A stretch of DNA of 32,569 nucleotides, from the IMG/VR virus record IMGVR_UViG_3300046665_000077, positions 1 through 32,569 of that record; one strand, written 5' to 3'. Every line of letters begins with the position of its first letter. The stretch's first letter is position 1. The DNA is from a virus. The notes beneath the pieces are model-generated. The model had not been told where the DNA came from and ran no database searches. It saw only the letters and a program-made list of their open reading frames with translations. Position numbers and translations under genes: made by a program. This document shows, in pieces, positions 3,815 to 32,559 of the stretch.

Positions 3815-6800
3815 TTATCCTGCTTCAGATAAGGTCTGCCAAGTTAACTCAAGGTAGTTGAGAATACCATCAGTGCTCCCGACCATTCTATTACCCTTGA
3901 CCAAGTAGTAGCTGGCTGTGAAAGTATTGGAGTCGTAGACATAAACGGAGTCCAGCAAGTCAATTAAAGGATTGCCTTTGACCACCACGTTCTTGGTTCT
4001 TGCCTGACGCTTGTAGTCAAAGAAAATCTTGTTGGCTACTTCCTCCTTCAGCCCACGCATCGAAGAACCGTCCTTCTCTTCAATCCAGTCTAATTGAGCA
4101 CCTGCGGTACGTATGTTACCTTTGGTAGCGATTATCAGAGACCTATCGAAGAAGTGCTCTACGATGCCCGCCGTTCCTGAAATCATCAAGTGATTTCTAA
4201 CACGGGAGTAGTCCGTCGAAGAAGTAACTTCCAGCAGGTTCTCCCCGTCAATGAACTCCCACTTCATTCCAGCAACCATTGCCCAATCCGGTGCATCCAA
4301 GAAGTCCATGCGCTCCATCCTGAACGTCCCGTACCTATCGCAGTAGATTCGGTATGGTAAATCCTGAATAAGAGACTGCAAGGCATCGGAAGCGTTCGTA
4401 CCTAATGGGAAGGTCACATTCGCCACGAATGGGTTCTGCCAGCCGCCCACTTTCATGATGTTCTCTTGGCTAACGGCTTCTAGTTCTCCGCTCTCCTTGT
4501 TGAACTTCATAAATGTGTTCTGTCCTTTATTTACATCAGTGTATATGGTGTCCTCAATCACGTAGTCAGGGTTAGCCATATCCTCCGCATGAACTTTCCA
4601 TGTGGTGAATCCAGAAGCGACAACGATATCTTCCACGATGCTTGATTTAATCCAAGCGAACGCCCCACCGTCTCCCGCATAGGCTTCTTCTGGCGGGTAC
4701 TGCATCGGCTTGTAGAAGACAAATTCTTCAAGCATATCGAACCTATCCACACAGCTAAAGGAGATGGTCTTCTCCGCAGAGTTTTCTGTAATCTCACCTT
4801 TAATCATTCCCGTGAATACTCGAACAACTTCTTCGCCATATCCAGCGTAAATCCTGATTGGGGTGTACTCGCTAATAACGTGACGCAGTTCCCCTTCTTC
4901 GTAGTAACTCAGGGGAGACTTGTCCAATCGGAATGCGTCTGGAAACTCCGGTTTGCGCTCCCACGATGGAGAGTAAATACCGGAAGCGTTATTCAGCGTG
5001 AGTCTCGCTGTGCTAATAGTTGTATCAAGATGGGTATTGATTTCCCAATTCATTACGTCTGCGTCAATGGTGTACATCTCTTCAAAGACAAACTCACCTA
5101 CTTCATACCACTTCTCCTTGTAGGTGTCACCGATAGCTGTAGCCAACTGCTCAACGGCGTAGTCGTTAGAAGCATAATTGATGCTATCGAGATACATTGT
5201 CCCGTCCGTTACAGCGAACAGGATTCTGCTTTGGTATGGGTAGTCGAATGCCGCCCCACGGATTCCGGTGTTGACCCAAACATCGTTAAGCTTCACGTAT
5301 ACGTCAATGTCCGTTTGGTCATGACAGACTACGGTGTACTCAATGAAATCAGCAGTCGTATCGAGTTGGTATGTTCCACCACCGCTGGTGTAAATTTGGT
5401 CATCCTTTATGTTCAGGAGGAATCCTTTTGTACCATCACCGATAACCAGCTTGCCGCTTGTACCTGCCGCAGTCTTCAGGCTGAAGTTAATAGTAAAGGG
5501 GAACTTCTTGATTTTACCTAGCCGCTCAATACCTGCTTCACCGCCGCTGGTCGAGATTGCCTGATAGTCGCCTTTGTCTTTCTGTACAACTGTGCCGTGT
5601 GGTGTCCACTTGTTGGCGCTACTCATGCTATCCTCAAAATCCCATAAGGCTTTTGTCTCGACCGTCTTTACATCAAATTCCTTAGCCCGCAACCAAAGGA
5701 TACCGAACTTACCTCTCGATGCTTTGGAAGAGTTGGCAAACGTAATCTCGACCACGTTGTGTCCTTTTGGCATCGGGATTGACGGTGGATAAGCCACGCC
5801 GTTCTTGGCATTAATGCCGTTGATTCGCACGACCTCATAGTCATTCACCTTAACGATAATTACATCGTCTTTTTCAAGGTCTGAGAAGTATGCCCAACCA
5901 AGGTTTCCTGCCTTAAACCAGTCATGCTCGAACACTAGCGTCTTGGTCTGACCAGCCCCGCCCGTACCCTTGAATCCGAGTACGTTCATTTGGGTGTCGT
6001 CGTCAGTAACCACCATCTGCACCGCACCGTCAGTCTTGGTGTACTTCTTAACATCCAGCGTGGTCTTCTTGGTTGTAAAATCCTTGAAGTAAGTCTGCTT
6101 GGAAGTTGTCTTGTTGTATTGGTATGTGACGATTTCTTTGTCGATGCTTGCGTCTCCGGTGGAGTCCGCTGAACGAGCCTTACCGTCTCCCCAAGAATTG
6201 ACTTTGACCACAACAGGTCTCCTACCAAACTTAAGTGCGTTAGCCTTCGTATCAAAAAGAATGTCTATCCGGTTTCCTTTAATGTCGCCGCCAGTATCGT
6301 CAGCAAGGTATTCTCCCCAACTTACTCCATCGACAACAAGTTCCACCTTACTCTTCAAGGGGATAACGGAAGGGTCAACGGCAATAATTTTCCAGTTCTT
6401 CCACGTGCGAACGTCTGTGCCGCCCCTTGTAATACCAATACAGCCGGGGCAATCAGCGACATATGCCGTGGCTTCCATGTTGTACGTTACAGTGGAAGTC
6501 GATGAATCAGCCATAACCGAAGCGTCCATTAGAACAGAAGCGTCCTGAATGTTCCTTGGGTCAATTTTCTTGCTTGGTGTCTGGACGGTCTTCTTACCGC
6601 GAAGGAACTGCTCAGGGTTCAGCGCTTTACCGTTAGACCTTACTTCAAAGTGTAAGTGTGAACCGTCTCCCCCATTAGAACGAGAAGTACCGGAGTTGCC
6701 CCCTAGACCAACAAGGTCTCCCGCCTTAACCTTATCCCCCACACTGACACTTATCTTGTTTAAGTGGGCATAGCGAGTCTCCCATCCGTTGCCGTGGCTA

Positions 6801-30791: not shown

Positions 30792-30890
30792 TATGATCGT
30801 TATGGGGTATATACACGCAGGTTCGATTCCTGCTCGGAGACAAGAATGGGTGCGTATATCGGTGGTTCAAATCCACCTACGGTCTCCTAT
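30792..30890 (+). ncRNA. Unassignable tRNA-like element with two T-arm-like hairpins
   Basis: Between tRNA-Phe and tRNA-Asn. Two T-arm-like hairpins, GCAGG-TTCGATT-CCTGC (30817-30833) and GGTGG-TTCAAAT-CCACC, lie in tandem. GGAGAC (30836-30841) pairs with GTCTCC (30882-30887) around the second. No full cloverleaf can be drawn; it may be a decayed or fused tRNA, or a new small RNA. Confidence 0.45.
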
Positions 30891-30965
30891 AGGGTTGTAG
30901 CACAATGGTAGTGCGGCACACTGTTAATGTGAAGGTTGCAGGTTCGAGTCCTGCCTTCCCTGCCA
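30891..30965 (+). tRNA. tRNA-Asn (GTT)
   Basis: Anticodon GTT at 30923-30925 in loop CTGTTAA; G73, encoded CCA; T arm GCAGG-TTCGAGT-CCTGC. The acceptor AGGGTTG/CTTCCCT has two adjacent T-T mismatches at positions 5 and 6. Confidence 0.82.
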
Positions 30966-30966
30966 T

Positions 30967-31037
30967 GCAGAGTTAGCCAAGCGGTAAGGCTATGGGTCGC
31001 AAGCCCATGACCGGAGGTTCGATTCCTTCACTCTGCT
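30967..31037 (+). tRNA. Second tRNA-Cys-like (GCA) with C33
   Basis: Perfect acceptor GCAGAGT/ACTCTGC, T73, no CCA. Anticodon stem ATGGG/CCCAT with loop TCGCAAG: anticodon GCA at 30999-31001, but position 33 is C instead of the invariant T. D arm is nearly that of bacterial tRNA-Cys. Confidence 0.75.
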
Positions 31038-31042
31038 TTTAT

Positions 31043-31185
31043 GACTGTAATTAGAGAAAAGTAAGCAACGGAACTCTCCGAACAACAGCTACATTTAGCC
31101 CTGTGGCACATTTTTGATGGGAGACATGGATTAGTGGTTGGCGACCACACGATGCTTTCTTTTCTGTGATTACAGTCTTTTATTC
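31043..31185 (+). ncRNA. Candidate structured RNA closed by a 19-nt stem
   Basis: GACTGTAAT-TAG-AGAAAAG (31043-31061) pairs with CTTTTCT-GTG-ATTACAGTC (31159-31177), 16 Watson-Crick pairs plus a 3x3 internal loop, followed by TTTTATTC. Inside are the hairpins CGGA-ACTC-TCCG and GTGGT-TGGCG-ACCAC. It lies directly after the last tRNA and matches no RNA family I know. Confidence 0.6.
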
Positions 31186-31217
31186 TCAAAATCCATATAC
31201 TCAGGGGGAATTTATTA

Positions 31218-31844
31218 ATGACTACAATGTCCATCCATCAAGCACTTGCAGAACTGAAGCTACTGGATAAACGCATTACATCGGCAACGAGCGGTGCGAA
31301 TTATATCAGCCATGCGGTGGGTCACAAGCCCGTTAGCGGATTCAACTCTGTTAAGGACTATGAGGACTATGCAACAGCGGCTTACCAGTCGGTCACGTCA
31401 TTGATTTCCCGCCGTAATCGTATCAAAGCGGCAATTGTCCTCTCTAACGCTCTCACGAAGGTTAAGGTCGGAGAAGTAGAACTGACGGTGGCTGAAGCAA
31501 TCGAACGCAAGACTACGATTGTTTACGACCAACGCTTGCTTGCCAAGATGACTCAGGACTACAACAATGCCGTTCGTGCGGTAGATACTGAAAACCGTAA
31601 TGTACAAGCACGGTTGGAGGACTTGCTGAAGATTTCCCTTGGCACTGACCGCAAAGGCAAGGATACGGAAGCCGAAGCAATCAGCAAGACGTTTAAGGAA
31701 GACAACGATGCCCGCCTGATTGACCCTATCGGTCTTCGCAAGAAGATTGACAAGCTGTCAGAGGAAATCGAGACGTTCCTGACGCAGATTGACTACCGCC
31801 TGTCAGAGAGCAACACGCTGACTACGGTTGAGATTGCTGACTAA
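31218..31844 (+). CDS. Helical protein of unknown function
   Basis: 208 residues, AGGGGG ribosome site. Predicted mostly alpha-helical with long amphipathic stretches (IHQALAELKLLDKRITSATS; LRKKIDKLSEEIETFLTQID) and several 'SRRNRIKAA'-type basic patches. Similar all-helical proteins of about this size are common in large Bacillus-type phages but without assigned function. The final protein gene before the long noncoding region. Confidence 0.7.
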   Translation: MTTMSIHQALAELKLLDKRITSATSGANYISHAVGHKPVSGFNSVKDYEDYATAAYQSVTSLISRRNRIKAAIVLSNALTKVKVGEVELTVAEAIERKTTIVYDQRLLAKMTQDYNNAVRAVDTENRNVQARLEDLLKISLGTDRKGKDTEAEAISKTFKEDNDARLIDPIGLRKKIDKLSEEIETFLTQIDYRLSESNTLTTVEIAD

Positions 31845-31849
31845 ATTCT

Positions 31850-32240
31850 TTACTTGCTAATCACTCGAAACTGTCACTCTTAACACCCTTTTGGCGGTGG
31901 GGTTCGCCGCCTACAACTATACTTCGCTAAAGTATGAGTAAATAACTCAACCTAAAATGGGAACGATATTGCCCGTTACTGTACGGGCAGATATTGTACA
32001 AACATGGTTAAAGTTCAAAACTCAAACTTCACAAGTTATAAAGTTGTAACGCTCAAAGTTCTTCATACGATGCAAAGCTGAGGACTTAAAGCACGGGCAA
32101 GAGCCGCTATTGGTGCGGTAGCCCAAAGGTCGATGAAACCTTGGATAACGGTATATAGGGGTTTGTTAATTGCCCTGACAGAGCCGCCAAGCTGAGTGGT
32201 TAGCACAAATCGGGCATTCCTTCGGGAGTGCTCTTTTTGT
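31850..32240 (+). ncRNA. Candidate large structured noncoding RNA
   Basis: The ~390 nt after the 208-residue gene hold no open frame but a dense run of hairpins. These include GGCGG/CCGCC (31893-31911), ATACTT/AAGTAT (31919-31935), GATATTGCCCGT with ACGGGCA-(G)-ATATT (31965-31995), CCGC/GCGG inside GGGC/GCCC (32095-32124), AAGGT/ACCTT (32126-32142) and a D-arm-like AGCTGAGTGGTTAGC. It ends in an intrinsic terminator. A phage ornate RNA of the GOLLD/ROOL kind is a possible comparison; I do not recognise the sequence. Confidence 0.6.
32214..32238 (+). terminator. Intrinsic terminator of the noncoding RNA
   Basis: GCATTCC-TTCG-GGAGTGC stem-loop followed by TCTTTTTG. An upstream TGCCC (32171-32175) could pair with GGGCA (32212-32216) and compete with the stem. 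Confidence 0.9.
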
Positions 32241-32273
32241 TTACTTGTAAAGGCGATTACCGAAAAATTTTTA

Positions 32274-32301
32274 CTAGGTATTTTATTAAGGTAGTACCTA
32301 G
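32274..32301. promoter_or_regulatory. Inverted repeat between convergent transcripts
   Basis: CTAGGTA and TACCTAG, 7 bp, 14-nt AT-rich loop, between the noncoding RNA terminator and the terminator of the right-edge gene. Operator or extra hairpin terminator. Confidence 0.45.
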
Positions 32302-32305
32302 ACAA

Positions 32306-32332
32306 AAAGAAAAACGCCCTCATTAGAAGGCG
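32306..32332 (-). terminator. Terminator of the right-edge gene
   Basis: CGCC/GGCG stem then TTTTTCTTTTT on the minus strand, overlapping the stop codon of the 78-residue gene. Confidence 0.75.
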
Positions 32333-32559
32333 CATTCTCCGATTGCTGTTTTCAATTCGATGATATCCTTGCAGATAACGGACACTGGTTTCTCGATATC
32401 AATGAAGCTGACCCACTCAAGGATAAAGCCATCGTCAATGTCGTCTGCGAAATACTTATCAATGATTGCGATTCCCGTCTCGAACTTGAATGCGAGACCC
32501 ATAAAGAAGGTATTATCTCCGTAGTTGTTGTCAATCAATTCATATAGGTTGTCCAGCAT
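32323..32559 (-). CDS. Small acidic protein of unknown function
   Basis: 78 residues, acidic (FADDIDDGF; ELIDNNYGDN), alpha/beta, no membrane segment. Start ATG at 32559 lies only 10 bases from the window end, so its ribosome site cannot be judged and the start could be further upstream. It is convergent with the plus-strand tRNA/RNA operon and has its own terminator. No family recognised. Confidence 0.6.
   Translation of the reverse strand: MLDNLYELIDNNYGDNTFFMGLAFKFETGIAIIDKYFADDIDDGFILEWVSFIDIEKPVSVICKDIIELKTAIGECAF

Follow-up and report, generated by a model that had tools for sequence, protein, structure and literature searches.

A predicted family of pseudoknotted non-coding RNAs encoded beside phrog_1491 genes in phages and bacterial chromosomes

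Positions 31850 to 32240 of this viral DNA lie at the end of a tRNA cluster. A preliminary description proposed that they encode a new large structured RNA. Is there an RNA gene at this locus and, if so, what does it act with? We use "window" for the whole stretch of 32,569 nucleotides analysed. As far as comparative sequence allows, a structured non-coding RNA gene is established on the plus strand, with a predicted core of 351 nt (31855-32205). The phrog_1491 gene (31218-31844) precedes it and a terminator follows. The comparisons below show the predicted RNA to be a member of a widespread pseudoknotted non-coding RNA family, found beside phrog_1491 genes. The RNA and protein together seem to be an undescribed RNA-protein partnership.

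The region folds strongly. The MFE of 31845-32245 is -133.6 kcal/mol (z -6.19) and none of 100 dinucleotide shuffles folded equally well. The terminator, described previously as perfect, is a nine-pair stem (32212-32233) plus a U run; the stretch containing it (32205-32245) has a folding z of -5.76. At gathering thresholds, Rfam identified tRNAs alone in the window and gave no match in the RNA region. Relaxing the threshold to E <= 10 for 31030-32330 produced chance matches only. Neither ARAGORN nor Rfam called a tRNA or tmRNA between 31038 and 32569. A search of the open-access literature found no published description of this RNA.

A blastn search matched the region, with 76% identity, to Brevibacillus phages Jenst and SecTim467. 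In both, the RNA again comes after phrog_1491, where a tRNA array ends; the regions fetched from the two phages are mutually identical. In IMG/VR contig L003 the RNA was first spotted as two weak matches just downstream of a phrog_1491 homologue, a position that indicated the protein gene as the constant neighbour. Exact DNA patterns built from the window and Jenst consensus found only Jenst in viral_contigs, because distant relatives keep structure rather than sequence; the protein neighbour is the productive route to them. The profile used was alignment A3 of 11 phrog_1491 homologues. The best 80 of 162 relatives in viral_contigs were taken as loci, together with 53 loci from genome_contigs. 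In tblastn searches, 695 of 50,697 phage records contained phrog_1491 homologues. Two sets of phage loci, eight and five in number, mostly had a gap of ~370-550 nt downstream of phrog_1491, unannotated or spuriously annotated, and the sequences share motifs.

The arrangement of a phrog_1491 homologue followed by the RNA is shared by T5-like, Vequinta-, Otago-, Bastille-, Lactococcus- and Clostridioides phages. Chromosomal copies occur in Bacillus, Lysinibacillus, Brevibacillus, Exiguobacterium and others. The RNA is in the same sense as the phrog_1491 gene and nearly always comes straight after the stop codon, with a median of 13 nt from stop to the first helix, P1. Bacillus phage KLEB27-3 is an exception; its RNA is ~1.3 kb downstream of phrog_1491, with other ORFs between. 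Here (locus L033) P1 pairs TGCTGTTTGTCT with GGGCAGACAGCA, and helix P3 pairs CCAAG with CTTGG at 5285 and 5335. Genes further downstream of the RNA vary among phages. Chromosomal neighbours, judged by eye from ORF translations, presumably encode permeases, proteases and metabolic enzymes, and do not resemble prophage. The RNA does lie at the end of a tRNA cluster in the window and in several phages, but this does not define its context: phrog_1491 is the neighbour that stays constant, and on chromosomes the surroundings are ordinary genes. One phrog_1491 copy was present in each of 10 genomes searched. In the genus of B. safensis, 14 of 44 genomes encode the protein. No match was obtained in a blastn search of plasmids.

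The T5-like form of the RNA is strongly conserved. By blastn, 447 of 50,697 phage records match it, 434 of them over at least 80% of the RNA and 422 with at least 90% DNA identity. Among 60 matches listed, most have no annotated feature under the match. In BF23, a predicted promoter alone overlaps the 3' end of the RNA.

Other RNA elements were seen near some copies. In Jenst, a skipping-rope RNA (L001:5925-6002; 67.6 bits) is just upstream of the RNA and a BsrG-like match (L001:6460-6734; 119.1 bits) is just downstream. In Dulem virus 39 (L038:3643-4201), two tRNA genes come after the RNA, with an rtcB gene ~2 kb further. A PreQ1 riboswitch (41.3 bits; L165:3228-3274) is downstream of the Psychrobacillus chromosomal copy.

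Comparison of the homologues yielded a common architecture. From the 5' end, the RNA consists of the P1 5' strand, (C)GAAA, the P2 5' strand, a pseudoknot strand and an H-type pseudoknot, often CCC...GGGTTAA. Variable hairpins follow, then a track of heptad repeats, AAAY, the P3 5' strand and hairpin P4, the loop of which pairs back with the pseudoknot strand. The 3' end comprises the P2 and P3 3' strands, C(T/A)G and the P1 3' strand. Since P3 crosses both P2 and the loop pairing, the core is pseudoknotted. The features of the window, with the basis of each assignment, are as follows.

31218-31844, plus strand: partner protein gene, phrog_1491, 208 aa (profile match, E 3.3e-69)
31855-32205, plus strand: predicted structured RNA gene, P1 to P1 (descriptor solution, homologues, controls)
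31855-31866, plus strand: P1 5' strand TGCTAATCACTC, then conserved GAAA (descriptor solution)
31871-31876, plus strand: P2 5' strand CTGTCA (partner TGACAG, 32176-32181)
31880-31885, plus strand: pseudoknot strand TTAACA (partner TGTTAA, 32164-32169, in the P4 loop)
31885-31911, plus strand: H-type pseudoknot, ACCC/GGGT crossed with GGCGGTG/CGCCGCC (score against shuffles)
31963-31997, plus strand: 14-bp hairpin with one bulge (MFE structure; a lineage-variable arm, not conserved in Jenst)
32010-32131, plus strand: heptad track of AAAGYUY-type units (repeat autocorrelation, motif fit), for example AAAGTTC at 32010, AAAACTC at 32017 and AAACTTC at 32024; also 32048, 32055, 32074, 32081 and 32125
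32140-32144, plus strand: P3 5' strand CTTGG, after conserved AAAC (partner CCAAG, 32187-32191)
32156-32177, plus strand: P4 hairpin, its loop holding the pseudoknot strand TGTTAA
32194-32205, plus strand: P1 3' strand GAGTGGTTAGCA, the "D-arm-like" element (descriptor solution)
32212-32238, plus strand: intrinsic terminator, nine-pair stem 32212-32233 plus U run

P3 is extended by GG (32150-32151) pairing with CC (32184-32185). P2, P4 and the pseudoknot strand are assigned from the descriptor solution, and P3 from that solution together with covariation. Helix boundaries are approximate because adjoining helix ends overlap by 1-2 bases (e.g. P2 and P4 at 32176-32177). Several elements of the preliminary description take on a different meaning in this fold. 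It listed simple hairpins; strong folding was correctly noted, but the pseudoknotted architecture was missed. The hairpin given as 12 bp with a single bulge at 31965-31995 does have one bulge, but contains 14 bp and spans 31963-31997. The "D-arm-like" element AGCTGAGTGGTTAGCA is present, but is the 3' strand of the closing helix P1 (31855-31866 with 32194-32205).

The assignment depends on controls. A descriptor search of 78 sequences (the window, 67 representatives sharing less than 85% protein identity and 10 loci from named phages) returned solutions in 68. A strict scan with fixed spacing detected the RNA in 66 of the 78, and in 121 of 147 loci overall. The same scan was positive for 1/78 reverse complements, 6/390 shuffles and 1/65 upstream regions. 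Hence, the descriptor missed ten sequences and the strict scan twelve; by eye, the motifs are present in several of them, but L158 looks incomplete. As helices were chosen by pairing, the percentages of pairing in descriptor solutions are inflated and the weight rests on controls. In anchored swaps, which begin from solutions preselected by pairing, P1 had a median score of 26 with its own partner and 12 with a swapped one; scores of at least 22 occurred in 48 of 68 and 22 of 816 cases, respectively. Similarly, P3 scored at least 11 in 96% of 68 solutions and 15% of 4556 swaps. We also ran the whole procedure on new inputs. A combined P1 and P3 score of at least 35 was reached by 50/78 natural sequences, 11/468 chimeras and 0/312 shuffles. 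The H-type pseudoknot score was at least 26 in 45 of 63 homologues compared with 16 of 189 shuffles. T runs follow P1 in 20/63 sequences and in 2/63 for an internal control.

Covariation was consistent with these results. Each of the eight inner P1 positions shows all four Watson-Crick pair types. For the 3' core we used MAFFT alignment A6, whose 54 rows were preselected on P1 and P3 scores. Here P3 covaries strongly: 98 cells were changed on both sides, against 29.5 when shuffled, and covariation was 0.689 against 0.176. None of 500 shuffles attained either value, and slid versions of the alignment gave 0.07-0.19. P3 was recovered independently by RNAalifold. CTG or CAG comes directly after P3 in 59/63 sequences. 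The spacing between the P3 strands (P3a and P3b) was 45-52 in 59/63, although 45-150 was permitted. Thus, the earlier proposal of a new structured RNA is borne out by strongly covarying homologues and the lack of an Rfam match in the window. The predicted family is larger than first thought.

Could the conserved region instead encode a protein? It had been described as free of open frames. This holds for the plus strand, where no ORF of at least 60 aa was found, but a 90 aa ORF on the minus strand (32063-32335) overlaps the RNA. At the equivalent place inside the Jenst RNA gene is JENST_11 (L001:6173-6349), a 58 aa minus-strand ORF annotated as a hypothetical protein and 57% identical to the window ORF over 47 aa. 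Among homologues, the P3a-P3b spacing changes without keeping to multiples of three and these frames are therefore probably spurious. We rejected the coding interpretation on this basis, and because the ORFs overlap the conserved RNA core.

The heptads form a regular array. We measured self-identity in the 111 nt preceding the AAAY motif of 63 sequences. The peak at lag 7 was 0.44, compared with 0.29 (z 29.8), with further peaks at lag 14 (z 18.8) and lag 21 (z 13.7) and weaker ones at 8, 15 and 22. The fitted unit is A(.94) A(.90) A(.74) G(.69) Y T(.96) Y; these frequencies are somewhat circular, since the motif was seeded by eye, but the autocorrelation is not. This fit from a by-eye seed places 544 sites in the 63 sequences, with a median of nine per RNA and 263 spacings of exactly 7. 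Folding of the track was not weaker than that of shuffles (mean z -0.58). Judging from our Rfam searches, we know of no described bacterial RNA with a 7-nt repeat track inside a pseudoknotted frame.

What is the partner protein? The phrog_1491 profile matches all 68 members of alignment A4. An AF2 model, built with 68 homologues, has a mean pLDDT of 94.1 and a pTM of 0.71. The predicted fold consists of long coiled-coil helices and a small beta sheet, with short strands at 2-5, 81-84, 87-90 and 203-206. Conserved polar residues (K14, R66, K70, S76, N77, T80, T90, E96, K98, D192, S196, N199) are, in sequence terms, near the strand-bearing parts. The protein is mildly acidic, with a median pI of 5.86 among 67 homologues. 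This is unlike most RNA binders and argues against simple electrostatic RNA binding. Searches of Pfam, NCBIfam and PADLOC gave no convincing family, with NCBIfam and PADLOC matches at chance level only. Domain searches found no known RNA-binding domain, and no convincing match to a nuclease, recombinase or reverse transcriptase domain. In the PVP-SE1 record the homologue is described as resembling T5.085, for which the open-access literature returned no paper. The public label of phrog_1491, "tail fiber protein", is probably wrong. A tail-fibre role is unlikely given the small helical predicted fold and the chromosomal genes, which stand alone as single copies outside prophage. The RNA family was overlooked because the RNA gene is usually unannotated and its neighbour carries this label.

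Large phage and bacterial RNAs offer points of comparison. GOLLD and ROOL form RNA-only homo-oligomeric cages. In our scans, no Rfam match to GOLLD, ROOL or OLE was found at E <= 10 in the window region, or at gathering thresholds in the homologous loci. GOLLD and ROOL are described as large pseudoknotted phage RNAs, often near tRNA islands and of unknown function, with no protein partner known for ROOL (PMC12286853). The same source describes OLE as a large bacterial RNA working with dedicated proteins, and profiles of all three as deriving from Rfam (PMC12286853). Compared with GOLLD and ROOL, the window RNA is shorter, has a heptad track and has a constant protein-coding neighbour; OLE differs in sequence and context. 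A similar gene arrangement is that of the TnpB omega-RNA/RAGATH-18, which is encoded immediately 3' of its own protein gene (PMC11061315). However, the phrog_1491 protein is without a nuclease domain and, as far as seen, the RNA is not a guide. RAGATH-27 (RF03100) matches L038:3653-3736 of Dulem virus 39 with 77.2 bits, just above the gathering threshold of 76.1. The match covers the 5' part of the Dulem virus 39 RNA, from the P1 5' strand to the H-type pseudoknot. Hence, Rfam holds no match to the window RNA, but one of its models recognises part of a divergent relative. That model is 86 nt with a single helix and is without P1, P2, P3, the second pseudoknot helix and the heptads. RAGATH-27 gave no match reaching 76.1 bits in the window or in any of 27 other loci scanned, and we found no paper on it in the open-access literature.

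The best explanation of these data, and one that we consider probable, is that the RNA gene and the phrog_1491 protein form a single RNP, in which the RNA is closed by P1 and the heptads serve as a binding array. We infer this from the constant adjacency of RNA and phrog_1491 across phages and chromosomes. In the window, one transcript would cover gene and RNA and stop at the terminator at 32212. Strict cotranscription is not a general rule, since other ORFs separate the KLEB27-3 RNA from the gene. The RNA would then be retained as a separate molecule closed by P1, with P1, P2 and P3 clamping its ends as a pseudoknot. The single-stranded track of around nine AAAGYUY heptads would be a repeated binding array. 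Most simply, the array would bind several copies of the phrog_1491/DUF6847-fold protein via conserved Lys, Arg, Asn and Thr residues. Alternatively, the heptads may bind a host factor brought by the phrog_1491 protein. We expect the RNP to have a general role in RNA biology rather than a structural role in the tail; it might be a chaperone, a storage particle or a decoy, with tRNA, mRNA or ribosomes as its targets. We favour a general role because virulent phages retain the pair, often within tRNA arrays, and chromosomes carry it as a stable cassette. GOLLD, ROOL and OLE have been hard to study because their partners were unknown. Here the adjacent gene supplies a candidate partner, and the family occurs in well-known hosts, namely T5-like phages such as BF23 in laboratory E. 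coli, and Bacillus pumilus-group chromosomes.

Other explanations were weighed against the RNP. A host RNA-binding factor (e.g. Hfq, Rho or a ribosomal protein) could read the heptads, making the RNA its decoy or sponge, with the phrog_1491 protein as a stabiliser or acting independently. Regular A-rich 7-nt repeats are typical of multi-site sponges and occur here in phages of very different hosts. However, constant pairing with one protein family, in chromosomes too, favours a dedicated partner, and to our knowledge the heptad is not an obvious site for Hfq, Rho or a ribosomal protein. We consider a sponge unlikely. A lower probability attaches to action in cis, with the RNA serving as a leader or attenuator, or stabilising the phrog_1491 mRNA from its 3' UTR. 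In favour of this, P1 begins a median of 13 nt beyond the stop codon, and in the window the RNA ends in a terminator. Attenuation had been suggested from TGCCC/GGGCA complementarity with the terminator stem. We rejected this because Jenst, inspected by eye, lacks the alternative pairing, and ORFs intervene between phrog_1491 and the RNA in KLEB27-3. Furthermore, downstream genes differ among phages, and the size and pseudoknots exceed those of a simple attenuator.

Slighter still is the chance that the locus acts as DNA, the heptads being protein-binding iterons of a replication origin or centromere and the inverted repeats a DNA structure. Contiguous 7-bp repeats are binding sites of some plasmid partition proteins, and Jenst carries genes for ParM and a replication initiator no more than 6 kb away. 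On the other hand, the signal is strand-specific relative to the gene (1/78 on the reverse strand), and the helices include G-U pairs and cross one another to form pseudoknots. The window has an intrinsic terminator after the RNA, T runs follow P1 in 20/63 sequences, and copies exist in chromosomes. We give least credence to a selfish or mobile cassette of gene and RNA that persists by spreading, without benefit to phage or host. Its patchy occurrence (14/44 Bacillus genomes) and the differing chromosomal neighbours of each genus would fit. However, no convincing nuclease, recombinase or reverse transcriptase domain was found, and, of the 447 phage records with a match to the T5-like RNA, 422 retain at least 90% DNA identity.

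The RNP that we favour may have distant relatives. The closest fold to the predicted phrog_1491 structure is DIP1984/DUF6847 (PF20935). The best PDB match, 3kdq, comes from C. diphtheriae and has no known function (Foldseek E 7.3e-3; VIA-align Z 10.6, rmsd 6.7, 152 residues aligned; next best Z 7.6), although a structural Z below ~13 is not decisive for helical proteins. We take 3kdq to be DIP1984; proteins of this type are labelled "septicolysin" in some annotations. PF20935 matched one of 68 phrog_1491 homologues, at an E of 0.0034 that falls short of the cut-off, and did not match the window protein. Of 299 genomes sampled in the phylum, 20 contained DUF6847 (18 over the cut-off), as did 5 of 39 from the Brevibacillus family. 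Literature matches listed for DUF6847 or DIP1984, in open-access sources, included no relevant paper.

Downstream of DUF6847 genes, 18 of 21 sampled loci contain GAGGGYGGG, most with a closing helix. P1-type pairing in 19 loci, several of them near-identical relatives, had a mean of 19.7 with the own partner and 12.1 when swapped. Signals for the other helices were weak. The H-type pseudoknot score was at least 26 in 12/21 stretches compared with 25/105 shuffles, and P2 had an own mean of 10.3 against 6.9 for swaps, the 95th percentile of which is 14. Unlike the phrog_1491 RNA, these stretches show no heptads when inspected by eye, and their 3' motif differs; Rfam gave no match in the five downstream loci searched. 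We regard a link between the two RNAs as a lead. There is an even chance that DUF6847/DIP1984-fold proteins, each with its own downstream pseudoknotted RNA, constitute an unrecognised RNP superfamily in which the heptads of the phrog_1491 branch align protein copies. If true, its members occur in many bacterial chromosomes and in virulent phages that range from T5-like coliphages to the large phages of Gram-positive hosts. The DUF6847 stretches (L189, L192, L195-L211) also contain GGTAG...CTACC and GAGGGYGGGNANGGGGA motifs, several with a T-arm-like GGTTCRANNCC hairpin by eye.

Two further segments of the window were noted upstream of the RNA. Positions 30792-30892 are tRNA-like, with two T-arm-like segments; neither ARAGORN nor Rfam calls a tRNA there, and folding is shuffle-like (z -0.98). 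Between the last tRNA and phrog_1491, 31040-31185 is a second strong fold (z -6.58) with a nested stem of 11+7+5 bp. Its homologue in Jenst (L001, ~5110-5255) shares the conserved core GAACAACAGCNRCATNTAGCCCTGTGGC. Among 218 loci, this core pattern occurs only in the window and the Jenst/SecTim copies, and in viral_contigs only in Jenst. By eye, the outer stem covaries between the window and Jenst.
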